A DNA stretch of 64,000 nucleotides, from assembly GCA_903826865.1 (NCBI GenBank), contig CAIKGD010000016.1, positions 25,885 through 89,884 of the forward strand, in the 5' to 3' direction. The notes beneath the pieces were generated by a model. That model had not been told where the DNA came from, did not search any database, and saw nothing but the letters and a program-made list of their open reading frames with translations. The stretch comes from an uncultured Verrucomicrobiota bacterium. Lineage in GTDB: Bacteria; Verrucomicrobiota; Kiritimatiellia; Kiritimatiellales; Tichowtungiaceae. Below are positions 48,836 to 64,000 of this stretch, in pieces. A program made the position numbers and the translations under genes. Each line of letters begins with the position of its first letter. The stretch's first letter is position 1.

Positions 48836-48910
48836 GCCGGCGTAGCTCAGTGGTAGAGCAGCTGATTTGTAATCAGCTGGTCGGGGGTTCAAATCCCTCC
48901 GCCGGCTCCA
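48836..48910 (+). tRNA. tRNA-Thr (UGU), integration site
   Basis: The acceptor GCCGGCG/CGCCGGC, D-arm, anticodon loop TTTGTAA (TGT, Thr) and T-arm GGGTTCAAATCCC are all present, with encoded CCA at 48908-48910. An integrase gene lies directly downstream in the same orientation, so the 3' half of this tRNA is the probable attachment site. Confidence 0.96.
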
Positions 48911-48956: not shown

Positions 48957-49066
48957 TTTTTCCGCCTCGTTCGGTCCGACTTCGGGGGAAACTTCGGGTT
49001 TGGCCGGTTGATTCGCCCTGTTTGATTAAGGGCATTTCATATGAACGCAAAATAAGGAGGCTGAAA

Positions 49067-50416
49067 ATGGGACTGGAAATTACACGGAAGAAAGACGGAT
49101 CACTTCGGGCAAAATGGTGGTACGGGCGGTTCGAAATAAACGGGAAATCAACCTGCGTTAATCTCGGGATAGAGATTAAAGGCGAGATTCCTGAAACGCT
49201 CAAAATGCGCGGAGATTCGCTCTTTGAGCATTCCCGAATGAAGGCTCAGGTTAAGCTCGAAGAACTGCGGAGCGAGGCACACAGCCGCAAATCGGCGGCG
49301 CATCATCTGGAAGAACTTTATGAGATTAAGTCAGGAGAAGGGCTTACGCAGATTCCTTTGACCGAAATGGAAATACGGTGGGCGTTTCTGCCTGCTAAAA
49401 AAACGCGTACGGAAAAGGCAGAGACGGCCCAGAAAGCAAATATCCGCGAGTTCCGCGAGGTTATGCAGGCAAAGTATCCGGCCGTCAAAAATATGTCACA
49501 GGTCTCCCGTCCCATGGTGCTGGCCTGGCTGACAACCCTGAACGAGCGCAAGCTGTCTGGCGCCAGCTACAACGTGAAGCTCTCCGTCATGCGAGGGCTG
49601 TTTGAGCAGCTTGGTCACGATGCCGGGATTCTGAAAAATCCTTTCGCGGGTATCCCGCACCGGTCTCTGCGCACTGTCCACCGCCAGCCGTTCTCGGAAA
49701 AGGAGTTGAATGACATTCTTGAGCACTGCGACGCCATCATCCGCCCCGTTGTTCTGACGGCCATGTGCACAGCCATGCGACGTGGCGACTGCTGCAAACT
49801 CAAATGGGAATCGATCGATATAAAAAACGGGTTCATTTCCGTAAAAACTTCGAAGACCGGCGAAATGGCTGAAATCCCGTTATTCCCGCTGTTGCGGGCC
49901 GAATTGGCGAACCGTCCGCGGGACAGTGAGTATGTCTTTCCTGAAGCTGAGGAAATGTATCGCACCAATGATCACGGTCTCACATGGCGGTTTAAGAAAG
50001 TTTTGCGTGATGCGGGTATCAAAAACATCCGGACGGTAAATGAGAACGCCAGCCAGAAAGCCAGCGTGAAGGATTTCCACTCCCTGCGGACGACATGGAT
50101 CACCATGGCGCTGACCGCCGGAGTGCCGATGGAACTGGTACGGCGCGTCACCGGTCATTCCACTGTCGAAGTCGTCTTGAAGCACTACTTCCGCCCGAAG
50201 CGTGAGGAATTCCGCCACGCGCTGGAATCTTCATTGCCGAAAGCGCTGACCGGCGGCATCGAAGAACGCTTTGATCTCCCTCAGGCGGTATTGGATCTCG
50301 GTAAAGAGGCGGAATCGTTGCAACCGGAAGAGGTCGTAAAAAAATTCAAGGCGTTGGTCGAAACTGTCGCCCGAATGACGGATGAGGAAAAAGCCGCCGC
50401 CGTCATCGCCGCCTGA
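49067..50416 (+). CDS. int: tyrosine recombinase / integrase
   Basis: The 449-aa protein has an N-terminal Arm-binding region, a core-binding SAM-like domain (VLAWLTTLNERKLSGASYNV) and the catalytic domain. The catalytic domain has Arg in CTAMRRGDCCKL, the H-x-x-R box HSLRTTWI, His in VTGHST and the nucleophile Tyr in KHYFRP. AGGAGG lies 7 nt before the ATG at 49067, which decides the start against 49022. Position and orientation next to tRNA-Thr support site-specific integration there. Confidence 0.94.
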   Translation: MGLEITRKKDGSLRAKWWYGRFEINGKSTCVNLGIEIKGEIPETLKMRGDSLFEHSRMKAQVKLEELRSEAHSRKSAAHHLEELYEIKSGEGLTQIPLTEMEIRWAFLPAKKTRTEKAETAQKANIREFREVMQAKYPAVKNMSQVSRPMVLAWLTTLNERKLSGASYNVKLSVMRGLFEQLGHDAGILKNPFAGIPHRSLRTVHRQPFSEKELNDILEHCDAIIRPVVLTAMCTAMRRGDCCKLKWESIDIKNGFISVKTSKTGEMAEIPLFPLLRAELANRPRDSEYVFPEAEEMYRTNDHGLTWRFKKVLRDAGIKNIRTVNENASQKASVKDFHSLRTTWITMALTAGVPMELVRRVTGHSTVEVVLKHYFRPKREEFRHALESSLPKALTGGIEERFDLPQAVLDLGKEAESLQPEEVVKKFKALVETVARMTDEEKAAAVIAA

Positions 50417-50592: not shown

Positions 50593-53500
50593 ATGGCGCA
50601 AACAGATAGACAGAAGGCGGTTCTGGAAATCCTTCAGAATTTGCGCAATTTAGACGGCCTGAAGAGGCTTTTCTGGGAAGAACTGAACTACGAGCGTGAA
50701 AACAAGCCGCTCAGCATTCGCAACTGGCCGGAGAGCGCGAAGGAATGCCTTGCCGAAGACCCGGTTCTTTTCGCCGGTGGCGGTGAAGGCGGCGACTTTC
50801 ATGTGGTGTACTGCCGTCTGGCTTCAAAGGATTTAAGCCGCGGGCTTCAACGCCCGGTGGTGAACCAGTTGCTCAAGGATCATCCTTACGCCCTGTTTGT
50901 CTTCTCGAACAAGGATCAATCCGCCTGGCACTTCCTGAATGTTAAATTTGATGAAAAGGCGGAGAACAGACGGCTTTTCCGCAGAATTACGGTCAGGCCG
51001 GGTGCCGGACTGCGCACGGCAACCGAACGCGTTCAACTGCTGGATTTGGCCGGGATCAGTCCCGAATTATTCGGCATCTCGCCGCTGGCGATTCAAGGCC
51101 AATGCGATACGGCGTTCGATGTTGAAGCGGTCACCAAAGATTTCTTCCGCGAAATTGCCAACTGGTACTTCTGGGCGCTGAAAAACGTCCAGTTCCCGAA
51201 AGATGCGCCCAAGGAAGCGGACGGCCACGACCATATCAGCGTCATCCGCCTCATCACGCGCCTGATCTTCTGCTGGTTCCTGAAAGAAAAAGGGCTCATC
51301 CCGGAAACGCTGTTCGACGAGCGGATGCTTGCCAAGACGCTGACCGGCTTTGAGCCGACCAAGGCCGACGAAAAGGAGTCCGTTTTTTACCGTGCCATCC
51401 TGCAGAATCTCTTTTTCGCCACACTCAATACCGAAATGGATAAACGCGGCTGGACGAAGGAAGAGCAGAATTTCATGGCGCACAGCCTCTACCGTCACCG
51501 CGACTGTTTCAGCGAGCCGAAATCGGCGCTCGATCTGTTCAAAGAGATCCCGTTCCTCAACGGCGGACTGTTTGAATGTCTCGATAAAGACCTCGGCGAA
51601 AACGCCAAACCGCGCTATGTCCGCATCGACGGATTCTCTCGGCGCGAAGACAGTCAGCCCGTTGTACCGGATTTCCTTTTCTTCGGCCCCGAGCGCGAAA
51701 TGGATTTGAGCGAGGACTATGGCGACAAGAAGTTTAAAAAAGTCCGGGTACGTGGGCTGATTGACACACTCCAGCGCTACCACTTTACGATTGAGGAAAA
51801 CACGCCGATTGAGCAGGAAGTCGCGCTCGACCCGGAACTGTCCGGCAAGGTGTTTGAAAACCTGCTGGCGGCCTACAATCCGGAAACCGGTGCAACCGCC
51901 CGCAAGCAGACCGGCTCGTTCTACACCCCGCGCGAGATCGTCAACTACATGGTGGACGAGGCGCTCATCGCCTGTCTGAAAGAAAAATTAACCACGGAAC
52001 ACACTGAAAACACGGAAAAGAAATTGAGGCATCTCTTTGCCTACAACGACGAGCCGCACCGATTTACCTCAAAGGAAGTCGAGGCGCTGATCGCCGCCAT
52101 TGACAGCCTGAAGACGATTGACCCGGCGGTCGGTTCCGGCGCGTTTCCGATGGGTATTTTGCACAAGCTGGTTTTCATCCTCGGCAAGCTAGACCCGCGC
52201 AACGAGAAATGGAAGGAACGGCAGATTGCCCGCGTCCGCGACACAATGAAGGTGGCGGAAAAGATTGATGATGCCACGGCCCGCGAACGCGCCGTGCAGG
52301 AACTGGGACAGCAGATTACCGGCATCACCGAAGCCTTTGAGCGCAACGAACTGGATTACGGCCGCAAGCTCTACCTGATTGAAAACTGCATTTACGGCGT
52401 GGATATCCAGCCCATCGCCGTCCAGATCTCCAAGATGCGCTTCTTCATCTCGCTCATCGTGGATCAGAAGATTGACGACACCTTACCCAATCGCGGGGTT
52501 CGCCCGCTGCCGAATCTGGAAACCAAGTTTGTCGCCGCCAATACGCTGATTGGTGTGAACCGGCCCGGCCAGCAACTATTGCGCAACCGCGACATAGACA
52601 CGAAGGAAGCCGAACTGCGCGACGTGCGCCGGAGGCACTTTCTCGCCCGGAATCTCCGCGACAAACGCAAATGCCGTGACGACGATGCCCGGCTCCGCAC
52701 CGAAATTGCCGAACTGCTCAAAGGCGACGGCTGGGACACCGCCACCGCCCGCAGGCTCGCCTCATGGAATCCTTACGACCAGAACGCCTCCGCCGATTTC
52801 TTTGACCCGGAATGGATGTTCGGCCTCACGAGCGGTTTCGATGTGGCGGTCGGAAACCCGCCCTATGGCGCGGAAATTGCGCCCGATGTTCAGCTGCTAA
52901 TTGCTCGGCTTTATACACATCAAAACAGCCCGACAGACAGCTATCTGCTCTTCATGGAGAAAGCCCATCAACTGCTGAATCCTAATGGGGTGGTAAGTTA
53001 TATCGTTTCGAACACATGGTTGCCATCGCTTACATTCCAGAAAATCAGACGGTTTCTTACTTCGTCATTTGTTTGGCGCAGCTTGCTTGTTATTCGCACA
53101 AAAGTGTTTGCTGCCGTAGTTGACACCAATGTGTTTTTGTTTCAGAAATCGAAGCCGCAACCAAACGGCGTGTTGCCAATTCATTTCTTCACCTCAGAGG
53201 GAGTGCAGTTTGCTCATAATTTACCATGGGCAGAGATCCCCAAAAACGGGGACGCAATTAACGTGATTTTTAATCCAGCGGCCCAGACTCTCTTCCGTAA
53301 GATGAGGACGGCCAGCAAATTATTGAAGGACATAGCGAGTGTTTATAACGGCGTGAAGCCTTTCGAGAAAGGAAAGGGACACCCACCTCAAACCGCAAAG
53401 ACCATGCGAGACAAACCGTTCGTGGTTGAAGGTTGCAATAAACCATCGGGAAGGCATTGGATGCCGCTTTTGCGCGGCAGCTTAATTCATCGGTATATAA

Positions 53501-54036
53501 CGTATTGGAACAAGGATTCATGGATACAATATGGTGAATGGCTCGCGGCGCCGCGTGACTCTGCTATTTTTGAAGCACCTGAAAAACTTTTGGTTCGGCA
53601 AACGAGCGATTCTATCATCGCAACACACGGAATCGCGGGCTTCATCGCGAGAGACAATCTTCATATTATTTTGCCCTCTGGTGAATCCGATTTGATGTTC
53701 TTGCTCGGAGTATTGAATTCCCGAGCCATAGATTTTCTCTATTCCTTTATCAACCCCGAAAAGGGTGAAGTTCTCGCCCAAGTAAAAAAGAACCACGTTG
53801 AGGAACTTCCGATTCCTAACGCGACCGCTACGCAGAAGAAAGCGATTAGATATTCTGTCAAAACCATTCTCGCCGCGAAAAAAAAAGATGTGGACGCCGA
53901 CACATCGGAATTGGAGCGGGAGATCGACGAACAGGTTTACGCTTTGTACGGGCTGACGGCGGAGGAGATCAAGATTGTTGACCCGGCCTTCGTTCCGTCA
54001 GGAGGAACTCCGGCGGGCAAGGGAACGACAAAATGA
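50593..54036 (+). CDS. Eco57I-like N6-adenine methyltransferase / type IIG-like protein
   Basis: The 1147-aa protein has a central adenine-MTase: motif I TIDPAVGSGAFPMGIL near residue 509 and motif IV VGNPPYGAEI near residue 755. The C-terminal third looks like an Eco57I-type target-recognition domain (PSGESDLMFLLGVLNSRAID). The N-terminal 430 residues include FYTPREIVNYMV just before the MTase; I cannot see a clear PD-(D/E)xK nuclease there. It may be modification-only or a type IIG enzyme. Residues near 466 (TTEHTENTEK) are the in-frame translation of a dispersed word repeat. It is the first gene of the cargo operon. Confidence 0.85.
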   Translation: MAQTDRQKAVLEILQNLRNLDGLKRLFWEELNYERENKPLSIRNWPESAKECLAEDPVLFAGGGEGGDFHVVYCRLASKDLSRGLQRPVVNQLLKDHPYALFVFSNKDQSAWHFLNVKFDEKAENRRLFRRITVRPGAGLRTATERVQLLDLAGISPELFGISPLAIQGQCDTAFDVEAVTKDFFREIANWYFWALKNVQFPKDAPKEADGHDHISVIRLITRLIFCWFLKEKGLIPETLFDERMLAKTLTGFEPTKADEKESVFYRAILQNLFFATLNTEMDKRGWTKEEQNFMAHSLYRHRDCFSEPKSALDLFKEIPFLNGGLFECLDKDLGENAKPRYVRIDGFSRREDSQPVVPDFLFFGPEREMDLSEDYGDKKFKKVRVRGLIDTLQRYHFTIEENTPIEQEVALDPELSGKVFENLLAAYNPETGATARKQTGSFYTPREIVNYMVDEALIACLKEKLTTEHTENTEKKLRHLFAYNDEPHRFTSKEVEALIAAIDSLKTIDPAVGSGAFPMGILHKLVFILGKLDPRNEKWKERQIARVRDTMKVAEKIDDATARERAVQELGQQITGITEAFERNELDYGRKLYLIENCIYGVDIQPIAVQISKMRFFISLIVDQKIDDTLPNRGVRPLPNLETKFVAANTLIGVNRPGQQLLRNRDIDTKEAELRDVRRRHFLARNLRDKRKCRDDDARLRTEIAELLKGDGWDTATARRLASWNPYDQNASADFFDPEWMFGLTSGFDVAVGNPPYGAEIAPDVQLLIARLYTHQNSPTDSYLLFMEKAHQLLNPNGVVSYIVSNTWLPSLTFQKIRRFLTSSFVWRSLLVIRTKVFAAVVDTNVFLFQKSKPQPNGVLPIHFFTSEGVQFAHNLPWAEIPKNGDAINVIFNPAAQTLFRKMRTASKLLKDIASVYNGVKPFEKGKGHPPQTAKTMRDKPFVVEGCNKPSGRHWMPLLRGSLIHRYITYWNKDSWIQYGEWLAAPRDSAIFEAPEKLLVRQTSDSIIATHGIAGFIARDNLHIILPSGESDLMFLLGVLNSRAIDFLYSFINPEKGEVLAQVKKNHVEELPIPNATATQKKAIRYSVKTILAAKKKDVDADTSELEREIDEQVYALYGLTAEEIKIVDPAFVPSGGTPAGKGTTK
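51988..52020 (+). repeat. intergenic-type word repeat inside the methylase gene
   Basis: The coding sequence contains TTAACCACGGAACACACTGA followed by AAACACGGAAAAG. This is the same ACACGGAA/ACCxCGxA word type found in the secA-Fic gap. It is 11 codons in frame and lies in a poorly conserved loop between the FYTPRE region and motif I. Confidence 0.55.
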
Positions 54037-54119
54037 ATTGGGTCAACGCCACGATCTTTGATGTCAAATCGCTGGACGCAACTGGAGAGATTGAAGACAA
54101 TCCGAACAAGAACGCATAG
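54033..54119 (+). CDS. possible 28-residue ORF coupled to the methylase
   Basis: An ATG overlapping the methylase stop (ATGA) opens a 28-codon frame, MNWVNATIFDVKSLDATGEI and eight more residues, ending TAG. Coupling and the soluble composition make translation plausible. It could be a micro-protein or the stump of a larger decayed gene. The next gene starts 20 bp later behind its own GGAGAGA site. Confidence 0.3.
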   Translation: MNWVNATIFDVKSLDATGEIEDNPNKNA

Positions 54120-54139
54120 GCAGAAACCGGAGAGAAGTC

Positions 54140-55891
54140 ATGATCACAAAACTTGTACTGAAAAATTTTAAAAGCATTTCAGAGCAGACCTATGATCTAA
54201 CCGACTTTGATTTGCTGGTCGGGCGGAACAACTGTGGCAAGAGCACCATTCTGCAATCCTTGGCGATTTGGCAGTTTTGCGTGGATGAATTCCATCGCGC
54301 ACGCCGAAGCGGGGCCAATGGCATTCAGGTTGTTCTCCCGAATTTTACAGCCCTGCCGGTGCCGGAGTTTAACCTTCTCTGGCATGAAAAGGTTGATCGG
54401 AAATATCCCATGGTGGCGGGCAAGAGATCCAAGAAGCCCGAATATGTTTTAATTGAGATTGAACTCACCTGGCTGGCTCCTAACCGCGAGCTCCGGACTT
54501 TCGGGGTGCAGCTTCGCTATACCACAGCACAATCCGTTTATGCGATTCCCATGCAAGGCTGGAAAACATTTCGGGAGATGGAGAAGGAGCCGGATTTCCC
54601 GAAAATCGCCTATGTGCCTCCGTTCTCGGGTCTTGAGCCCAACGAGGAATGGAGAGACGAGGGCCCGCTTAGAAAACAGGTCGGCAAGGCCCAGCCGGGA
54701 AGCATTCTACGGAATCTTTTACTGAAAGTCTGTCCGGCACCCCCGCGTGATGACACAGGGCGCATTGATAAAACGTATGAGCCTCCTGCGGAATGGAATG
54801 AACTGAAACAGGCTATAAAGCGCTGGTTTTCTGTGGAGCTGGTGGAACCCCGGTATGAGCGCGGTGTGGATACGCAGATTCTTTGTGAATATAAACAAAG
54901 AGGAAAGTCGTACGACATTATATCCGGTGGAAGCGGATTCCATCAGGCTTTAACCCTTTTGGGGTTTCTCTACGGCTACCGTCCGACAACGCTTCTTCTG
55001 GATGAGCCCGACGCTCACATGCATGTAAACCTTCAACGTGAAATACTGGACTATTTTAAGAAAAAATCCGGCGAAACAGGAGTTCAATTTCTCGTGGCGA
55101 CTCATGCGGAGGAGTTGATTAAAGGTGTTGATCCGAGTCAGGTTGTGTCCATATTGCAACATAAACCGCATCGGCTGACTTCGGCCACTGGCGTTCTGAC
55201 TGCGATGGCTGACGTATCCAATGCCGAACTCAGCCAGCTTGCGGCTTCGCCATTTGTCCTTTATGTGGAAGGCGAAACAGATGAACGCATTTTGCGGGCT
55301 TGGGCTTCAGTCTGCAAGGCCGACGATGTGCTTCCAAAGGTATGTTTTCATACCATGGGCGGTGGCACCAAAAAGCTGATGAAAGACCATGCGGACAGGC
55401 ATTACGAAGGAGTTCGGCAGGTGTTCCCGCAGGTGAGTCGCTTGATGCTGTTCGATTATGACAGCGAAGAAAATGCATTCCATCCCACAGCAAGCAATTC
55501 TGCTTTGTTTGAGTGGGGTCGTAAAAATATTGAGAACTATCTGCTTGTTCCTGATGCGTGGATGCTTGCCGTCTCAAAAGATTTGGGGCTTCCAGACGAT
55601 GATTTAATGGCGGAGCCAGCCCGGCAAGTCATCAGAGACTTCTTTTCCAATGAGAATCTCACTCTGCCCCGCGGACAGACTTGGCAAACCGTGACGGCAA
55701 ACATCTTTAAAGTGGTGGACGGTAAAAAACTGCTTTTTGACTCGGATGTTGCTCTATTCACGAAACTTGAAGCCATGAACCCTCCTGTAAAGGCAATCCG
55801 GGAGAAGGTCGCGGGCTTCATGAAAGAAAACGAGATACACGAAGATGTTAACAGGTTTTTCACCAAGCTGCGTGAAGCGGTTGAAGCCTAG
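54140..55891 (+). CDS. OLD-like ATPase with TOPRIM domain
   Basis: The 583-aa protein is an SMC/ABC-type ATPase: LKNFKSI at the N-terminus, Walker A VGRNNCGKST near residue 27, signature-like ISGGSGFHQ, Walker B LLLDEPDAHMH near residue 286, and H-loop ATHAEELI. A C-terminal TOPRIM-type domain follows, with VEGETDERIL near 376 and LFDYDSEEN near 437. OLD nucleases in Gabija and PARIS have this build. It is the second large gene of the operon. Whether the TOPRIM part is catalytic is unknown. Confidence 0.88.
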   Translation: MITKLVLKNFKSISEQTYDLTDFDLLVGRNNCGKSTILQSLAIWQFCVDEFHRARRSGANGIQVVLPNFTALPVPEFNLLWHEKVDRKYPMVAGKRSKKPEYVLIEIELTWLAPNRELRTFGVQLRYTTAQSVYAIPMQGWKTFREMEKEPDFPKIAYVPPFSGLEPNEEWRDEGPLRKQVGKAQPGSILRNLLLKVCPAPPRDDTGRIDKTYEPPAEWNELKQAIKRWFSVELVEPRYERGVDTQILCEYKQRGKSYDIISGGSGFHQALTLLGFLYGYRPTTLLLDEPDAHMHVNLQREILDYFKKKSGETGVQFLVATHAEELIKGVDPSQVVSILQHKPHRLTSATGVLTAMADVSNAELSQLAASPFVLYVEGETDERILRAWASVCKADDVLPKVCFHTMGGGTKKLMKDHADRHYEGVRQVFPQVSRLMLFDYDSEENAFHPTASNSALFEWGRKNIENYLLVPDAWMLAVSKDLGLPDDDLMAEPARQVIRDFFSNENLTLPRGQTWQTVTANIFKVVDGKKLLFDSDVALFTKLEAMNPPVKAIREKVAGFMKENEIHEDVNRFFTKLREAVEA

Positions 55892-55906
55892 ACCGGGGTT
55901 CTTCGT

Positions 55907-57664
55907 ATGACCGACACAACCCGACAGAATATCGCCCGCTGGATCGCCGCTGAAGAAGGCCAGTTCTTTGAGCGGAAGTCTGCGCTGGATCGCTCGTCTG
56001 AAAAGGTGAAGCCGCGCAAGGCGGCAGAGATCGCCCATGATATTGCTGAAACGCTTTGCGCAATGGCAAATGCGGACGGCGGCGAATTGGTGATTGGCAT
56101 CGAAGACAACGGGACGCTTTCCGGCGTTCCGCACGCAGAGGACAAAATCAATTTACTGCTGGGGATTCCGAAAGACCGGAATTACGTCAATCCGCCGCTC
56201 CCTTGCCGAGCCAGCAAAGTTGCCGCTCCGGATGGAATGACGCTTCTCCATTTTGAGGCAGATTGGAGCCCGGATGTGCATCTGCTGGCGGACAGCCGTT
56301 GTCTGTTGCGCATCCGCGACCGGAATGAGCCTTTCGACAAGGATAAGGTCAAAGCGCTGAAAGAGTCCAAGACTCAGGGACTGTTTGAACGCACGTTTCC
56401 CGCCGGGGCCCGGATGGAGGATTTAGACGAAACCTTATTGGCCGCGTTTGCCGGAAAAGTTTCTGTGGAAAGTGCGCCCCGCGAGGTGCTGTCCCGGTTT
56501 CGGCTGGTTGAAGGGCGCAACGGGCATGCTGTGCCGACGCTGGCGGCACTGCTGCTGTTCGGTCGTGATCCGTCGCGCTGGCATGACCGCTGCGGCATTG
56601 ATTTTGTCCGCTGGGAAGGTAAGGAGCGTAAGTCCGGTGCGGAGTTAAATATTTCCAAGCGATTCCGGGTCGAAGCGCCGCTGTCGGTTCTGCCGGAAAA
56701 AGCGTTTGAGTCTATCAAGCCCTTTATCCGCGAACGGCAGCAGTTGCATGACCTGTTTTTTGCCGAGAAACTGGAATATCCAACCTTTGCATGGCAGGAA
56801 GCCATCGTGAATGCAGTTGCCCATCGCGATTACAGCATCCGGGGTCTTGGAATCGAGGTCTGGATGTTTGACGACCGGATGGAAATCCGCAGTCCGGGTC
56901 TGCCTCCGGCACCGGTCACATTAGATGCCTTGGCAAAGTGCCGGCACATGCACTGTTCCCGCAATCCTTTAATGGTGCGGGCGCTGACTTCGCTGGGCTA
57001 TATGCGGGAACTCGGCGAGGGCGTGCCGCGTATGTTTGACGAGATGGAGCGCGCCGGTTGCTATCCGCCGCGTTTCGAGGCGGTCGGCGGCGCTGTTGTG
57101 CGGGTTACTTTGCGCAATGAGCCGATCTATGATCAGGCAACGCTGGAGTGGCTCGCTCAATTTAAAGAAGTTGAGTTGTCCGGCGACCAGAAGCGGATGC
57201 TGGCCTATGCTCATGCGCACGGGGATTGCTTTACCAGCCGTGAATACCAGAAGGTTGTCGAAGCGGACATCTATGGCGCCTCGAATGCCATCAAGGACAT
57301 GATCCGCAAAGGGATCGTTCGTTCTGAAGCCAAGGGCGGTAGAGTTTACAGTGTTGTGATTCCGCTTATGGCAGTAGACGGTATGCCGGACGATTTAAAG
57401 GCTCTCTTGAAACAATTAACAAAAGCCGGGTGTATCAGAAATGTAGATGTTCAGAAGGTTCTGAAGGTGTCCCGCATATCGGCATGGAGAATCATAACTG
57501 GCTTAATTGCAGATGGTTGGCTCGCTCCAAAAGGGTCTGGTAAGGGGCGGAGCAGTTCGTATGTGCCCGGTTCCCGTTTATTGTTTCAGGCTCAAAGTAG
57601 CAAAAACGAGCGTGAGGCTGAAACAATAGGTGCTGAGGCTGAAACATTAAAACCACAGGAATAG
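55907..57664 (+). CDS. AlbA_2 / HATPase regulator with C-terminal HTH
   Basis: The 585-aa protein has an AlbA_2 (Schlafen-like) domain over residues 8-130 (EGQFFERKSALDRSS; ANADGGELVIGIEDNG). A GHKL-type ATP-binding region follows with EAIVNAVAHRDYS near residue 297, the G-box IRSPGLPPAPV and LGEGVPRM. Two winged-helix segments complete it (DCFTSREYQKV; VQKVLKVSRISAWRII). COG2865 proteins of this build are usually called transcription regulators but often sit in defence islands. It lies 15 bp after the OLD-like gene and 4 bp before the helicase gene. Confidence 0.9.
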   Translation: MTDTTRQNIARWIAAEEGQFFERKSALDRSSEKVKPRKAAEIAHDIAETLCAMANADGGELVIGIEDNGTLSGVPHAEDKINLLLGIPKDRNYVNPPLPCRASKVAAPDGMTLLHFEADWSPDVHLLADSRCLLRIRDRNEPFDKDKVKALKESKTQGLFERTFPAGARMEDLDETLLAAFAGKVSVESAPREVLSRFRLVEGRNGHAVPTLAALLLFGRDPSRWHDRCGIDFVRWEGKERKSGAELNISKRFRVEAPLSVLPEKAFESIKPFIRERQQLHDLFFAEKLEYPTFAWQEAIVNAVAHRDYSIRGLGIEVWMFDDRMEIRSPGLPPAPVTLDALAKCRHMHCSRNPLMVRALTSLGYMRELGEGVPRMFDEMERAGCYPPRFEAVGGAVVRVTLRNEPIYDQATLEWLAQFKEVELSGDQKRMLAYAHAHGDCFTSREYQKVVEADIYGASNAIKDMIRKGIVRSEAKGGRVYSVVIPLMAVDGMPDDLKALLKQLTKAGCIRNVDVQKVLKVSRISAWRIITGLIADGWLAPKGSGKGRSSSYVPGSRLLFQAQSSKNEREAETIGAEAETLKPQE

Positions 57665-57668
57665 TCCG

Positions 57669-60600
57669 ATGCCAACGCACGACATCATAGATAACCGCAC
57701 CGAGAAGCTGGTTGACCACCTCAACCAAATGCTCGGTTCAAGCGAACGCGCCCGGTTTGCGGTCGGCTACCTTTTCCTCTCCGGTCTGACCAGCGTGGCA
57801 AAACGGCTTCTGGCCATGAAGGAACTCCGCCTGCTGATTGGCAATACGACGAACAAGGAAACGGTTGAGCTGTTGGCCGAGGGTTACAAGCGGCTTGATC
57901 TGGCTGCTGAGGAGATGGAGAAGCAAGTTTATCCAAAACGCACTGAGGCCGGAAAGATGGCCGGTGAAACGGCCGGCAATCTTCGCAATGCCGTGGAGTG
58001 GATGGATCAGACCGACGAGGCGCAGGAGCTGATTGAGGGGCTTATCCGGATGATTGAGGAGAAGCGGCTGAAAGTCCGCGTGTACACCAAGGGCCGTCTT
58101 CACGCCAAGGCCTATATCTGCGACTACGGGAAGGTTTTTGATCTGGTGGGTAAGGAAATGGATCGGCACGAAAAAGGAATCGCCGTCGTAGGCTCCTCCA
58201 ATCTGACGCTCGCCGGACTGACCCATAACACGGAGTTGAACGTGGTCGTACAAGGTAACCAGAACCATAAGGAACTGGTTCGCTGGTTCGATGCTCTTTG
58301 GGATGAATCACCTGATTTTGACGAAACGTTGATGGCGGAGCTCAAAGAATCCTGGGCGGCGGCGCAGGTGCGGCCTTACGACATTTACATGAAGACGCTC
58401 TATGCGCTCGTGCGTGACCGGCTGGAGAACGAAGACGATCAGGAACTGCTTTGGGACGATGATATTTTCCGCAAGCTGGCGAGCTTCCAGAAGGTAGCCG
58501 TCCGGCAAGCCGTCCAGATTGTGCGCGACTACGGCGGGGCTTTTGTTTCCGATGTGGTCGGGTTGGGCAAGAGCTATATCGGCGCGGCGATTGTGAAACA
58601 TTTCGAGCGCACGGATCACGCCCGGCCTCTCATTATCTGTCCGGCTCCGCTCGTGGAGATGTGGGAACGCTACAACGAGTTCTATCAACTGAATGCCCGT
58701 GTACTTTCAATGGGCTTCCTGAGGGAAGACGACGATGCCGGAGTCACCATGTTGCTGAACGACGTTAAGTTCAAGGATCGTGATTTTGTGCTGATTGATG
58801 AAAGCCACAATCTGCGGCATTCGGACACGCAACGCTATAAGGTGGTGCAGTCCTTTCTTTCAACGGGGCGGCGCTGCTGTCTGCTCACCGCAACTCCCCG
58901 CAATAAGAGCGCATGGGATGTTTATCATCAGATCAAATTGTTTCATCAGGACGACCGAACCGACTTGCCGGTTGACCCGCCGAACCTGAAAGAATACTTC
59001 AAACTGATTGATAAAGGTGAACGTAAGCTACCCGACCTGCTGACCAACATTCTCATCCGGAGAACCCGTCAGCATATTCTGCGTTGGTACGGCTTCGATT
59101 CAGAAACTCACGAGCCGGTTGATCCGGGCCGGTTTCAGGAGTATCTGCAAGGACGGCGCAAGGCGTATGTATTGGTGGCGGGAAAGCACCAGTTTTTCCC
59201 GAAGCGGGAATTGGAAACCATCGAGTACAGCATCGAAGATACCTATCAGGGGCTCTATCAGGAGTTGCGCGGTTACCTCGGGAAACCCCGCAAGGATAAG
59301 GGACAGAAATTGCGGGCGGGCGAGCTGACGTATGCCCGTTTTGGCCTGTGGCATTATGTTAAAGATGGGAGTCAGAAAAAAGAACCCTATCTCAGCCTTC
59401 AGCGGGCCGGAGCCAATCTGCGCGGGCTGATGCGCGTTCTGCTTTTCAAGCGGTTTGAGTCCAGCGTTTTTGCATTTCAGCAAACCATAAAGCGCTTGCT
59501 TCTGGTTAACGAACGGTTTCTTGCGGCATTGAACGGCGGAATGATTCCCGCAGGCGAGGACGCTCAGGCCATCCTCTATGAAAGCGACAAGCTGAACGAA
59601 GAGCAAATCGTGGACGCCCTCCGCAAACTGCCCGGGCGATATTCGGTAGAAGATTTCAACGTCGATCTGCTCAAACAGCATGTTGAGCACGATATTGAGC
59701 TGCTCAAGAAAGTTCAGGCGCTCGTTCTGCCCATAACGCCGGAAAAAGATGCAAAACTTCAGACCCTGAAGACTCGGCTTTCCGCCGTTCCTTTGAAGGG
59801 GGCAAAGCGGTTAATCTTTACGGAGTATGCAGACACAGCCAGATACCTTTACGAAAACTTGAATCCAGACGGCAAGTATCCGGACATCGAAGTCATCTTC
59901 AGCGGCGACAAGAGCAAGGAAAAGGTAGTGGGTCGGTTTGCGCCAAAGGCAAACCCGGAATACCGCTTTGCTAAAGACGAGGCGGAGCTGATGATGGTGA
60001 TCGCTACCGACGTGCTCGCTGAAGGGTTGAACCTTCAGGACTGCGACAACATTATCAATTACGACCTGCACTGGAATCCGGTTCGCCTGATTCAACGCTT
60101 TGGGCGCATTGACCGTATCGGATCGGAGCACCAGAAAGTTTTCGGGTTTAACTTTTTACCCGAACTCGGCATTGAGAAGAATCTCGGCCTGCGGGAAAAA
60201 CTGCACAACCGGATTCAGGAAATTCACGATACAATCGGTGAGGACGCCGCCATTCTGGATTTGTCTGAGCAAATCAATGAAGAGGCGATGTTTGCCGTTT
60301 ATGAGACGCAAGGTGGAAAAGCAGTGCAACTGGATCTGTGGGGCAGTGCGGATGACGACGGATTTCTTGACCTGAACGAAGCGGAAGAAATTTTGCGGCA
60401 GTTGCGGAAAGACAATCCGGCGGAATATGACCGGGTCGCCAATCTGCGCGACGGTATTCGAACAGCCCGCTCGTCGCTGGAACGCGGGCTCTATGTTTTT
60501 TGTCAGGCTGGGCGTTTTCAGCAACTGTTCTTGCTTGATGAAAAAGGTGAGATTGTTTCCAGAGATATTCCCCGGGTCGTCGGGGCCGTAAAGTGCGCGC

Positions 60601-61016
60601 CTGATGCCAAAGCCGCGCCTTTGCCGGATGGATACAACAAGACCGTTATGGAGATTCAGTACCGGTTCGCGGAAGAAGTTCGCCATCGTGAGGCCGAACG
60701 CGCTTACACGGCCAACCTGACCCACGGCCAACATTACGTTTTGCGGGAATTGCGGATGTTGTTTGAAATCACTGAAAACGAGGAAATCAAACAGAACGTC
60801 AACATTCTAGAAAAGGTGCTTCGTGGCACTCTGACCGGTGCGGTGCAGCGGGAACTGAATCAAATGCGCCGCAATAGTGTGACGGGTGACAGCCTCCTCA
60901 AAAGCCTGATCAGAATCTATGACCAGCATAATTTGAAGGACGCCTCCACCCGACGCAGTCTTGAAGCGGAAGACCGCCCGGTTCCCCGGATCATTTGTAG
61001 CGAAGCGTTCGTGTGA
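57669..61016 (+). CDS. PLD-nuclease / SNF2 helicase fusion
   Basis: The 1115-aa protein joins an N-terminal phospholipase D-type nuclease motif (GRLHAKAYICD near residue 143, then VVGSSNLTLAGL) to a Swi2/Snf2 helicase. The helicase has Walker A DVVGLGKSYIGAAI near 297, DESH box VLIDESHNL near 376, LLTATPRNK, and motif V/VI ATDVLAEGLNLQD with RLIQRFGRIDRIG near 805. PLD-SNF2 proteins occur in DISARM-like and other defence loci. It is the last and largest effector-like gene of the operon. Confidence 0.9.
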   Translation: MPTHDIIDNRTEKLVDHLNQMLGSSERARFAVGYLFLSGLTSVAKRLLAMKELRLLIGNTTNKETVELLAEGYKRLDLAAEEMEKQVYPKRTEAGKMAGETAGNLRNAVEWMDQTDEAQELIEGLIRMIEEKRLKVRVYTKGRLHAKAYICDYGKVFDLVGKEMDRHEKGIAVVGSSNLTLAGLTHNTELNVVVQGNQNHKELVRWFDALWDESPDFDETLMAELKESWAAAQVRPYDIYMKTLYALVRDRLENEDDQELLWDDDIFRKLASFQKVAVRQAVQIVRDYGGAFVSDVVGLGKSYIGAAIVKHFERTDHARPLIICPAPLVEMWERYNEFYQLNARVLSMGFLREDDDAGVTMLLNDVKFKDRDFVLIDESHNLRHSDTQRYKVVQSFLSTGRRCCLLTATPRNKSAWDVYHQIKLFHQDDRTDLPVDPPNLKEYFKLIDKGERKLPDLLTNILIRRTRQHILRWYGFDSETHEPVDPGRFQEYLQGRRKAYVLVAGKHQFFPKRELETIEYSIEDTYQGLYQELRGYLGKPRKDKGQKLRAGELTYARFGLWHYVKDGSQKKEPYLSLQRAGANLRGLMRVLLFKRFESSVFAFQQTIKRLLLVNERFLAALNGGMIPAGEDAQAILYESDKLNEEQIVDALRKLPGRYSVEDFNVDLLKQHVEHDIELLKKVQALVLPITPEKDAKLQTLKTRLSAVPLKGAKRLIFTEYADTARYLYENLNPDGKYPDIEVIFSGDKSKEKVVGRFAPKANPEYRFAKDEAELMMVIATDVLAEGLNLQDCDNIINYDLHWNPVRLIQRFGRIDRIGSEHQKVFGFNFLPELGIEKNLGLREKLHNRIQEIHDTIGEDAAILDLSEQINEEAMFAVYETQGGKAVQLDLWGSADDDGFLDLNEAEEILRQLRKDNPAEYDRVANLRDGIRTARSSLERGLYVFCQAGRFQQLFLLDEKGEIVSRDIPRVVGAVKCAPDAKAAPLPDGYNKTVMEIQYRFAEEVRHREAERAYTANLTHGQHYVLRELRMLFEITENEEIKQNVNILEKVLRGTLTGAVQRELNQMRRNSVTGDSLLKSLIRIYDQHNLKDASTRRSLEAEDRPVPRIICSEAFV

Positions 61017-61061: not shown

Positions 61062-61281
61062 AGACGGTGGCTTAGAAAAAATTTTACTTTTTTTTCCGCC
61101 CGTTAATTCCGTTCCATTCCGCCCCATGTCGCGTCATTCCATTTCGTGTCGGTTTCTTCCTGTTGCACCCCGGCTGCGTTCCATTTCCTTTATATAGTAA
61201 AGGCCGCTTCCTCCGGTTGATTCCGCCCCTTTGGGTAGAGCCCCATGTTTTTTTTAACTCTAACCTATAAGGAGCGGACAT

Positions 61282-63384
61282 ATGCTACACGCCATTAAAA
61301 ATCTCGCATCGAACCAAACCAAACCGTGCAACCCCTGGGAGGTCAAAACAGTTGCCCCGCCGAAATCCGAATGGAGCAGGCCCGATCTCGACCACTGCTT
61401 TTATTCCGGATTCGAGGGTTTGCTTTCCGGGATGCGCATCGACTCAAAAAACAATCCCGCCGTCCGTCTGCACTGGATCGTTGCCGACTACGATGGCCGG
61501 ATTGATCAGCATGCGCGTGACACTGTTCTCGACCACTGCGTTGATTTCCGTCCGCAGTATATCAGCAAAACTATTTCTGGCGGTGCCCGGCTGCTCTGGC
61601 GGCTCGAAGCACCTTTCCTGCTCCATAGCAACGACCTGACTATCCGGCTCATGCAGCATGTCCGCAAAAAGCTGGGGCTCTCTAAGATCATGGTCGGGCT
61701 GGACACCGCCGCCTTTGGAAATCCCTGCCAGTACTACGAAGCCGGCACGGACTGGGTTCAGCTTTCCGGCGGCGTGATCCCGGCAAACTTTATGATGCAG
61801 TGGGCTGTTGAATCCTCTCATCAATACGACTGGCACAAACTGGGCCCTGTTATTCCTATCGAACCCATCGCCGACGAAGTGGAACGGCAATATCCCGGTC
61901 GGTGGACCGGCGATTTTGACATCGGCAGACGCGGCGTTCGCTTTTGGGATTCCTCGGCGGACAACGAGACGGCGGCGATCGTGCGTGATTCCGGTATGCA
62001 ATGTTTCACCGGTGGACAGGCCTTTGTTCCGTGGTCGGCAATTCTCGGGCGTTCCTTCGTCAATAAATTTGAAGCGGATCGTGTTGGCGGCGCCATTGAA
62101 GACATCTGGTTTGACGGCCGCGATTATTGGCACCGGCATCCTGACGGCACATGGAATTCTTTGTGCAAAAACGATACCGGCCTCGAACTCAAAGTTGCCA
62201 AGGGTCTGCGGATGTCTAAATCCCGCAACGACAACTTTACCGAAATCGACAAAGCCCTCCAGCATATCCATAAATATCAGCGTATTACTTGTGCTGCGCC
62301 TCTGATTCATCGTCCGAAAGGCATTATTCACCTTAATGGTCTCCGCATCCTCAACACCTCCACCGCTTCAGTTTGCCAACCTTCGGAAAAACAGGGGATC
62401 GATCCCGCCGCCGATTTCCCGTGGTTACTTTCGTATTTCTCCACCTTCTTCGATCCGGTTGAGCAGTTGGATTATTTTTATGCGTGGTTGCGCCGCTGGT
62501 ATAAATCCGCCCTCGACAACCGCATGCTTCCCGGACAGGCTTCCTTCTTCGCCGGCGTTCCGAACACTGGAAAGACGCTGCTCTCTACCGTTATCCTTTC
62601 CCGTATCTTCGGTGGGCATACGGATGCGTCATCATTCCTCTCCGGCGACGACAATTTCAACTCCCACCTTTTCCAGTCCGCCGTCTGGGCAGTCGACGAT
62701 ATTGTCCCGCTGACCGACCATCGCTCGCATCAGAAATTTTCAGCGCTGATCAAAAAAATGGCGGCCAACCGTACCTTTTCCATCCGGGAAAAATTCAAGG
62801 TCGATAAAACAATCGAATGGAACGGGCGAGTGGTTGTCACCTGTAACACCGACCCCGAATCCATACGAATCCTGCCGGACGTTGACCTTTCCAACCGCGA
62901 CAAGATCAACCTTTTCCGAGTGGCGGAGCGGGACACATTCGCATTTCCGCGCGATGTCGCCGATATCATCCAGACTGAATTACCGTTCTTTCTGCGTTGG
63001 CTTCTTGACTGGACACCGCCGGATCACGTTCTGGGCGATTCACGCTACGGGGTTCAAACGTACTGCGAAGCGTCTTTGTTTGAAGCGGCACGGCATTCAT
63101 CCAGTGCCTATTCCTTCCTCGAGGTCTTACTGAAGTTTTTCGAAGGCCAGACTTCCAATGTGTGGACAGGTTCGGCGACGGATTTGTTAACGGCTATGCT
63201 CAGCGATCAGGACGGCTTGGCCGGTATTGCTGCTAAATACACCACCCGCCAAGTCGGCCGGGAATTATCCAAGCTGGCATCTCAGGGTTATCCGCTTACT
63301 CAGCGACGACATCATGCTACGCGGATTTGGGATATTGACATCGTTCGGATTCGCGAAGGTGAAGGGGATACGACGCCTTTTTAA
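61282..63384 (+). CDS. primase / SF3-type helicase of the element
   Basis: The 700-aa protein has an N-terminal archaeo-eukaryotic-type primase-like part (residues 1-190, IVADYDGRIDQHARD and GLDTAAFGNPCQYYEAG). A C-terminal SF3/D5-like helicase follows with Walker A AGVPNTGKTLLS near residue 423, Walker B WAVDDI near 469, and motif C VVVTCNTDP. It is expected to initiate replication of the excised element. GGAG precedes the ATG. It is the first gene after the cargo operon. Confidence 0.85.
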   Translation: MLHAIKNLASNQTKPCNPWEVKTVAPPKSEWSRPDLDHCFYSGFEGLLSGMRIDSKNNPAVRLHWIVADYDGRIDQHARDTVLDHCVDFRPQYISKTISGGARLLWRLEAPFLLHSNDLTIRLMQHVRKKLGLSKIMVGLDTAAFGNPCQYYEAGTDWVQLSGGVIPANFMMQWAVESSHQYDWHKLGPVIPIEPIADEVERQYPGRWTGDFDIGRRGVRFWDSSADNETAAIVRDSGMQCFTGGQAFVPWSAILGRSFVNKFEADRVGGAIEDIWFDGRDYWHRHPDGTWNSLCKNDTGLELKVAKGLRMSKSRNDNFTEIDKALQHIHKYQRITCAAPLIHRPKGIIHLNGLRILNTSTASVCQPSEKQGIDPAADFPWLLSYFSTFFDPVEQLDYFYAWLRRWYKSALDNRMLPGQASFFAGVPNTGKTLLSTVILSRIFGGHTDASSFLSGDDNFNSHLFQSAVWAVDDIVPLTDHRSHQKFSALIKKMAANRTFSIREKFKVDKTIEWNGRVVVTCNTDPESIRILPDVDLSNRDKINLFRVAERDTFAFPRDVADIIQTELPFFLRWLLDWTPPDHVLGDSRYGVQTYCEASLFEAARHSSSAYSFLEVLLKFFEGQTSNVWTGSATDLLTAMLSDQDGLAGIAAKYTTRQVGRELSKLASQGYPLTQRRHHATRIWDIDIVRIREGEGDTTPF

Positions 63385-63406: not shown

Positions 63407-63433
63407 GACCGCCTGCATCAGGGCGGTCTTTTT
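63407..63433 (+). terminator. intrinsic terminator after the primase
   Basis: GACCGCC and GGCGGTC form a stem with an 8-nt loop followed by TTTTTATT. Confidence 0.85.
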
Positions 63434-63443
63434 ATTGTCGGGC

Positions 63444-63624
63444 GCGTCATTTGCGTCGTTTGTGTCGTGCGTCATCATCATTTAAAAAGTTACCCTGTAA
63501 TTGCACGGTATGCAGAACGGCAGTTATCTCTATTCTCTATACTTCTATTTATAATGGTAATAATGACGCAGATGACGCAGACCAATAGGGACGGGGGTTT
63601 CCTGCGCGTCATCATCCGCGTCAT
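63444..63624. repeat. 9-bp iterons flanking an AT-rich core: candidate element origin
   Basis: Forward GCGTCAT-type units start at 63444, 63453 (GCGTCGT), 63462 (GTGTCGT) and 63469; the first three are spaced by exactly 9 bp. Inverse units ATGACGC start at 63563 and 63572, again 9 bp apart. Forward units recur at 63606 and 63618. Between the left and inverse groups lies an AT-rich stretch (63476-63562). The arrangement directly behind a primase-helicase gene is that of an iteron-controlled origin. The role is inferred. Confidence 0.65.
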
Positions 63625-63700: not shown

Positions 63701-64000
63701 ATGCGTTGTCATAATTGCCGTCACCACGAAGCCATCCTGCGAGGCGACTTCGATTCCAAACCTTGGAACGAGACTCCTTGTGCCGCCTGCAAGCTGGGTG
63801 AGGATACGTTCTATTCCGTTCCGTTTGACGAAGAGAATCCTCCTGTCGTTGCAACGCGGCAGGCTTCCGACAGTCCGTTGATTCCCGCGGATGTGCTGGC
63901 TCAATTCGTACAGGGGTTTCTTTCTTTGCCTTCCGAGCTGCGCGACATCGTTGCTTGGCGTTATCAGGGTGTGTCGTACAAAGAGATTGCACAGCGTCAG
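63701..64000 (+). CDS. zinc-ribbon / sigma-region-4-like HTH protein (5' part)
   Basis: This gene is open at the window end and so is missing from the ORF track. It begins MRCHNCRHHEAILRGDF after a GGAGGA site. It has two Cys pairs (CHNC, CAAC) that suggest a zinc ribbon. After a linker comes LPSELRDIVAWRYQGVSYKE, the start of a region-4/RpoE-type HTH as found in small sigma factors or phage regulators. At least 100 residues are visible. It may regulate the element. Confidence 0.7.
   Translation, partial: MRCHNCRHHEAILRGDFDSKPWNETPCAACKLGEDTFYSVPFDEENPPVVATRQASDSPLIPADVLAQFVQGFLSLPSELRDIVAWRYQGVSYKEIAQRQ

Follow-up and report, generated by a model that had tools for sequence, protein, structure and literature searches.

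Short repeats that lie directly after a primase-helicase gene very probably serve an integrated phage or phage-satellite-like element as its replication origin, with units that would be bound by the upstream primase-helicase through its winged helix. The window, i.e., the whole 64,000-nucleotide stretch analyzed, covers positions 25885-89884 of contig C16 from a 2.64-Mb, 88-contig genome (G000), and its last base is the contig end. We computed the repeats, their conserved layout, a winged-helix prediction and a specific covariation between the wing and the units. The first-pass annotation had described an initiator-bound origin, and at the sequence level this reading is supported by the conserved unit positions in relatives and by the covariation of units and wing.

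A pattern search of the window located exact GCGTCRT units at 63444, 63453, 63469, 63606, and 63618 on the plus strand and at 63563 and 63572 on the minus strand. GTGTCGT at 63462 is a one-mismatch copy, and the count of seven to eight copies in the first-pass annotation is therefore correct. The left group (63444-63475, plus strand; GCGTCAT, GCGTCGT, GTGTCGT, and GCGTCAT) has steps of 9 and 9 bp (63444/63453/63462) followed by 7 bp to 63469. The inner pair (63563-63578, minus strand) is inverted and has a 9-bp step, so that the partly exact 9-bp spacing and the inverted inner group were both described correctly. A spacer (63579-63605; 34 bp from unit to unit) leads to the right pair (63606-63624, plus strand), in which two GCGTCAT units are 12 bp apart. 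Exact GCGTCRT occurs seven times within 63444-63624, compared with 0.11 expected and a maximum of three in 2000 dinucleotide shuffles, and this is the densest 181-bp place for the motif in the 64-kb window. Many short direct repeats thus stand beside a proposed initiator gene above chance, as in iteron origins. Upstream of the block, a terminator-like hairpin read in the sequence (63407-63433, plus strand; GACCGCC...GGCGGTC followed by TTTTT) closes the primase transcript.

Between the left group and the inner pair lie a TTTAAAAAGT element, a GC-containing spacer, and an AT-rich core that is likely the unwinding region (63481-63562), as judged from A+T content and from tracts that recur in relatives. 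The A+T content between the unit groups (63477-63562) is 69%, and it rises to 80% in the module's most AT-rich 40-mer, which begins at 63525. The repeats are therefore adjoined by an AT-rich region of the kind that iteron origins use for unwinding (69-80% A+T vs 46% in the preceding gene), and the units do flank an AT-rich core on both sides, as had been proposed. A further copy noted upstream of the primase at 61131 is present, and it is kept in a 93%-identical sister (L029), but it is not meaningful. GCGTCRT matches the whole window 30 times against 24 expected, and the related prophage L023 has no counterpart upstream of its primase. For these reasons, we dropped the 61131 copy as a chance match and rejected it as part of the origin.

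Nine of the 97 relatives carry homologues of the primase-helicase, frequently with several in one genome; these homologues include those of Pontiella sulfatireligans and Pontiellaceae B12227. Pontiella belongs to the phylum Kiritimatiellota. We compared the DNA after the primase stop codon in the window and in 15 further Kiritimatiellota and viral-contig relatives. The shared order after the primase-helicase is left units, a TTNAAAAAGT-like (AAAAA) tract, a GC-containing spacer, a TATA-rich tract, the inverted pair, a spacer, and the right pair. The aligned relatives have a left group of TGACRT/GCGTC-type units, and the AAAAA and TATA-rich tracts also recur in them. The inner inverted units are 8-9 bp apart and the right units 11-12 bp apart, and the first right unit follows the second inner unit at a distance of 34 bp in all loci measured (the window, L023, L042, L024, and L040). 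This layout is kept across primases that are 63-100% identical to that of the window, and conservation of this kind among related replicons is expected for an iteron origin. Loci with primases of about 42% identity (L052, L053, L055, L064, L068, and partly L044-L046) follow the same plan with other units; in these distant viruses, GTGTCC or TGTCAC recurs at 8-9 bp steps and is followed by an inverted pair. Units are degenerate in 4 of the 16 loci (L025, L026, L033, and L041) and not clear in the L047 clade. In nearly all loci examined, the unit cluster directly follows the initiator gene. Where the first-pass annotation had looked to conservation of the units in homologous elements, position and orientation are kept but the unit sequence is not, and it changes in concert.

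Several wider searches were also made. When viral contigs were scanned a second time, with a helicase peptide, only the four closest contigs came back again. The exact 15-mer TGACGCAGATGACGC occurs in at least 120 stretches of viral contigs. Among the matches listed, a single stretch (L140, from the same contig as L042) encodes a primase relative, and at least one other match (L104) consists of a long array of nearly identical GATGACGCA repeats. We therefore rejected the 15-mer as a finder of related origins. A stem-loop in the spacer between the inner and right pairs is strong in a few relatives (L024, L027, and L055), but the inner spacer of the window has no significant hairpin, and the mean z is about -1. 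Because of this, the candidate was dropped and we claim no conserved stem-loop. Folding of the inner spacer likewise gave no large conserved structure of the type that follows the replication gene in pRN1. Three viral contigs (L095, 960-1180; L098, 3197-3289; L115, 239-331) carry TGACGC units at 9-bp steps with inverted pairs about 78-96 bp apart, either just downstream of a different primase/helicase-like gene on the minus strand or no more than a few hundred bases from it. Such an origin type may have arisen more widely, perhaps by convergence.

The proposed initiator is a 700-amino acid primase-helicase (61282-63384, plus strand), recognized by Pfam DUF5906 (E=7e-8), PHROG 1156 ('DNA primase'), and its predicted fold. 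AlphaFold2 returned a pLDDT of 76 and a pTM of 0.46 for the whole protein, and 85 and 0.78 for the C-terminal 100 amino acids, which are predicted to form a winged helix. From the model and the covariation, helix 3 (residues 655-667) and the wing (671-686; tip 678-680) are assigned to codons within 63244-63339 (plus strand). The predicted wing strands span residues 672-677 and 680-686, which places residues 678-680 at the tip. Foldseek matched the full model best to the helicase region of the NrS-1 polymerase and to poxvirus D5/E5 (11-16% identity in these structural alignments) and, lower down, to SaPI PriRep1 (7pds). The top matches of the C-terminal domain were mostly winged-helix proteins, with E-values of 0.05 or weaker. 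Pfam, the predicted structure, and the fold point to an SF3/D5-type initiator helicase with a C-terminal DNA-binding domain, as in SaPI/PICI elements. A profile search of PDB chains, PriRep1 included, detected no sequence relation to solved structures at E<=0.01, and a protein search of 50,697 annotated phage records in INPHARED returned no match. In the alignment, residues 69-104 contain a D-x-D motif (ADYDG) and, at the place of the S-x-H that is usual in archaeo-eukaryotic primases, the sequence SGGARLLW. This N-terminal domain may have an altered primase active site.

The units differ between elements. They are GCGTCAT in the window, L023, and L042, GCGTCAG in L027, L034, and L035, and GTGACGT in L024, L040, and L043, and the other compared elements have TGACAT-like or degenerate units. 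Unit type does not follow the phylogeny of the primase-helicase; it follows the wing of the C-terminal winged helix. Unit distances, taken from a MAFFT alignment of divergent non-coding DNA from 16 elements, correlated with distances of the 16-residue wing (Mantel r=0.56-0.57, p=0.0002), and the correlation was the same after controlling for body or helicase distance. The corresponding values for other parts were -0.09 (body), 0.02 (helicase), 0.13 (helix-3 region), and 0.08 (tail). When the whole protein was scanned in 15-amino acid segments, the correlation peaked at 0.64 for residues 667-681 and was at most 0.15 for every segment starting before residue 650. Residues 678 and 680, two columns picked after inspection, are the only ones that separate GCGTC from TGAC elements, with His and Thr in 6/6 of the former and in 0/10 of the latter; two or more separating columns arose in 27 of 2000 label permutations. 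On the body tree, the unit class switched five times independently and the wing was concordant in 5/5 switches (sign test p=0.0625, the lowest value that five pairs allow), although 16 elements with five switches make a small sample. Between L023 and L024, two prophages of the same genome (G009), the divergence is 4% for the helicase but 50% for the wing and 54% for the units.

The wing and the units are only 60-350 bp apart, and the two could co-travel through recombination as one DNA block with no functional recognition. The neighboring spacer DNA also correlates weakly with the units (0.27-0.31), so part of the wing-unit signal may be linkage. However, sequences that are as close or closer track the units poorly (r 0.08-0.17 for the tail of 14 residues and the wing's third codon positions; 0.17 for the latter and 0.12 for the tail DNA), and the amino acid signal is confined to the wing. 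Co-travel as the sole explanation is, in our view, very improbable.

The covariation also separates the candidate binders at the sequence level. The next gene (63701-64000, plus strand; the ORF is open at the window end) encodes a zinc-ribbon and sigma/HTH-like protein that has no Pfam or PHROG match and has homologues downstream of the repeat region in 13/16 loci. A regulator such as this protein could use the units as operators to control its own promoter and late genes. The block does occupy the promoter position of this gene, between the terminator-like hairpin and the start, and operators can be iterated and inverted as well. However, the protein does not covary with unit type (r=0.01) and the primase wing does. 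Units are also kept in L027, L028, and L036, where no downstream homologue was detected, and a long AT-rich core with units on both sides exceeds what operators need. We therefore consider operators an unlikely explanation.

Covariation speaks for binding specificity and not for origin function, which leaves room for a primase-helicase whose binding to the units serves mostly to control its own level or the copy number. The block would then be a handcuffing or incompatibility site and the functional origin would lie elsewhere. The control sites of P4 alpha and of iteron plasmids are separate from the minimal origin, and in P4, ori and crr are separate sites. Against this, origins are usually built as seen here, around an AT-rich core that units flank symmetrically, and the cluster lies directly after the initiator gene in nearly all loci examined, as it does in SaPI origins. 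A pure control site is thus quite improbable, and we retain the reading as an origin.

The contig stops 300 bases into the gene after the block, so the element is incomplete in the window, and a search by DNA similarity found no continuation of the contig in its genome. The probable left end of the same element is a tyrosine integrase gene (49022-50416, plus strand; Phage_integrase E=1.6e-17) beside a tRNA-Thr (48836-48910), and integrases of the same cluster also occur in L025, L027, and L031. The stretch between this integrase and the primase consists of defence-like genes, with domain matches to a type IIG restriction-methylase, an AAA/OLD-like ATPase, AlbA_2-HATPase, and a PLD+SNF2 helicase (50593-61016, plus strand). 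The gene order of L024 is that of a complete phage, with a DUF2800 nuclease, a family-A DNA polymerase, the primase-helicase, and the repeat block, followed by a terminase, a Mu-type portal, and a Mu-like protease. No terminase of this family was found in the window's genome, where the contig ends inside the element. The sole polymerase trace found in that genome is a broken phage-family DNA polymerase gene with one TAA inside (G000:C40:42233-43033; L215-L217), probably a relic of a related prophage. Because defence genes fill the stretch from integrase to primase, the terminase was not found, and the polymerase is only a broken relic, the window element is possibly not a full prophage but a satellite or cargo element.

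The genes upstream of the 93%-identical primase of genome G013 (L029, 3-1615) are quite unlike those at 50593-61016 of the window, and the cargo has therefore been exchanged right up to the primase promoter. At L031 (311-9925) in G025, a Pontiella-order genome, a copy of the primase and origin lies between two sulfatase genes and an integrase. No phage structural genes were recognized among the proteins searched nearby, and L031 is possibly a minimal integrative element. As repeated and conserved non-coding DNA in a phage-like element, the block might alternatively be a packaging (cos/pac), resolution, or attachment site. This is hardly credible, as the block adjoins a replication gene and not a terminase or integrase, it covaries with the primase, and the window's integrase is about 13 kb away.

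For the block as an origin, we infer binding, helicase loading, melting, and origin activity by analogy with SaPI Rep, SCCmec Cch2, and pRN1 ORF904. The primase-helicase would act as a self-loading initiator that binds the short units via its C-terminal winged helix, and the unit sequence would be read by the wing hairpin, chiefly by its tip (residues 678-680). Several copies bound to the left and right of the AT-rich core, with opposing orientations at its edges, would load two helicase rings facing each other. These rings would melt the AT-rich stretch and allow bidirectional copying.

A further idea, which we regard as a real possibility though not as the expected outcome, is that the wing tip is an evolvable address reader. 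Kiritimatiellota phages and satellites would keep the origin architecture and move to another address when a few wing residues and all units change in step. If so, related prophages in one genome could replicate without cross-initiation, and roughly two to six residues would decide which origins are compatible. The three elements of G009, with their different addresses, are cited with this idea: L023, L024, and L025 have three unit types. The two elements of G019 (L027 and L035) share the unit type GCGTCAG, and different types are therefore not obligatory for co-residence.

The unusual feature here is a naturally occurring series of near-identical initiators whose origin addresses differ, along with a candidate determinant of two residues. 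Because near-identical initiators carry different addresses, specificity could be tested directly by swapping the short wing. If our reading is right, it provides a predicted origin-initiator pair for a largely unstudied phage group, as well as a rule for finding origins in such elements: directly after the primase gene, with units at 9-bp steps. We found no paper on Kiritimatiellota phage replication in the literature searched.

Among known systems, the NrS-1 phage polymerase and poxvirus D5-E5 are the best Foldseek matches of the full model, and in the literature searched no origin with such repeats is tied to them. Like the window protein, pRN1 ORF904 combines a primase, an SF3 helicase, and a C-terminal winged helix, with the origin immediately downstream (PMC4234260). 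However, the origin of pRN1 consists of a 100-nt stem-loop and lacks iterons, and here the repeats are constant and the stem-loop is weak or absent. Phage P4 alpha, compared by description, likewise unites primase, helicase, and initiator in one protein that recognizes iterons, but its primase is of the Toprim type, unlike that of the window protein (PMC4234260).

In SaPI Rep and SCCmec Cch2, a C-terminal domain binds iterons directly downstream of their own gene (PMC7581432). The putative Cch2 origin (AAGTG iterons) resembles the window module in having a D5-type helicase and direct repeats just downstream of the gene. It has only three 5-bp iterons and a separate polymerase/primase, whereas the window has seven to eight units in three groups and a fused primase. 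SaPI Rep/PriRep1 is a self-loading SF3/D5-like helicase, which in PriRep1 also carries a fused primase, and its short-iteron origin directly follows the initiator gene; the window system is predicted to share these features. Unlike SaPI, the window system belongs to a different host phylum, spaces its units regularly at 9-bp and 11-12-bp steps, has its inner pair inverted, and apparently owes its specificity to the wing of its short, C-terminal winged helix. The similarity to SaPI Rep/PriRep1 is in fold only; sequence homology was tested by the PDB profile search and not found, and the window module is therefore not filed as a SaPI module. By analogy, it nevertheless probably works like the initiator-origin pairs of SaPI, P4, and SCCmec, with the origin directly downstream of the initiator gene.
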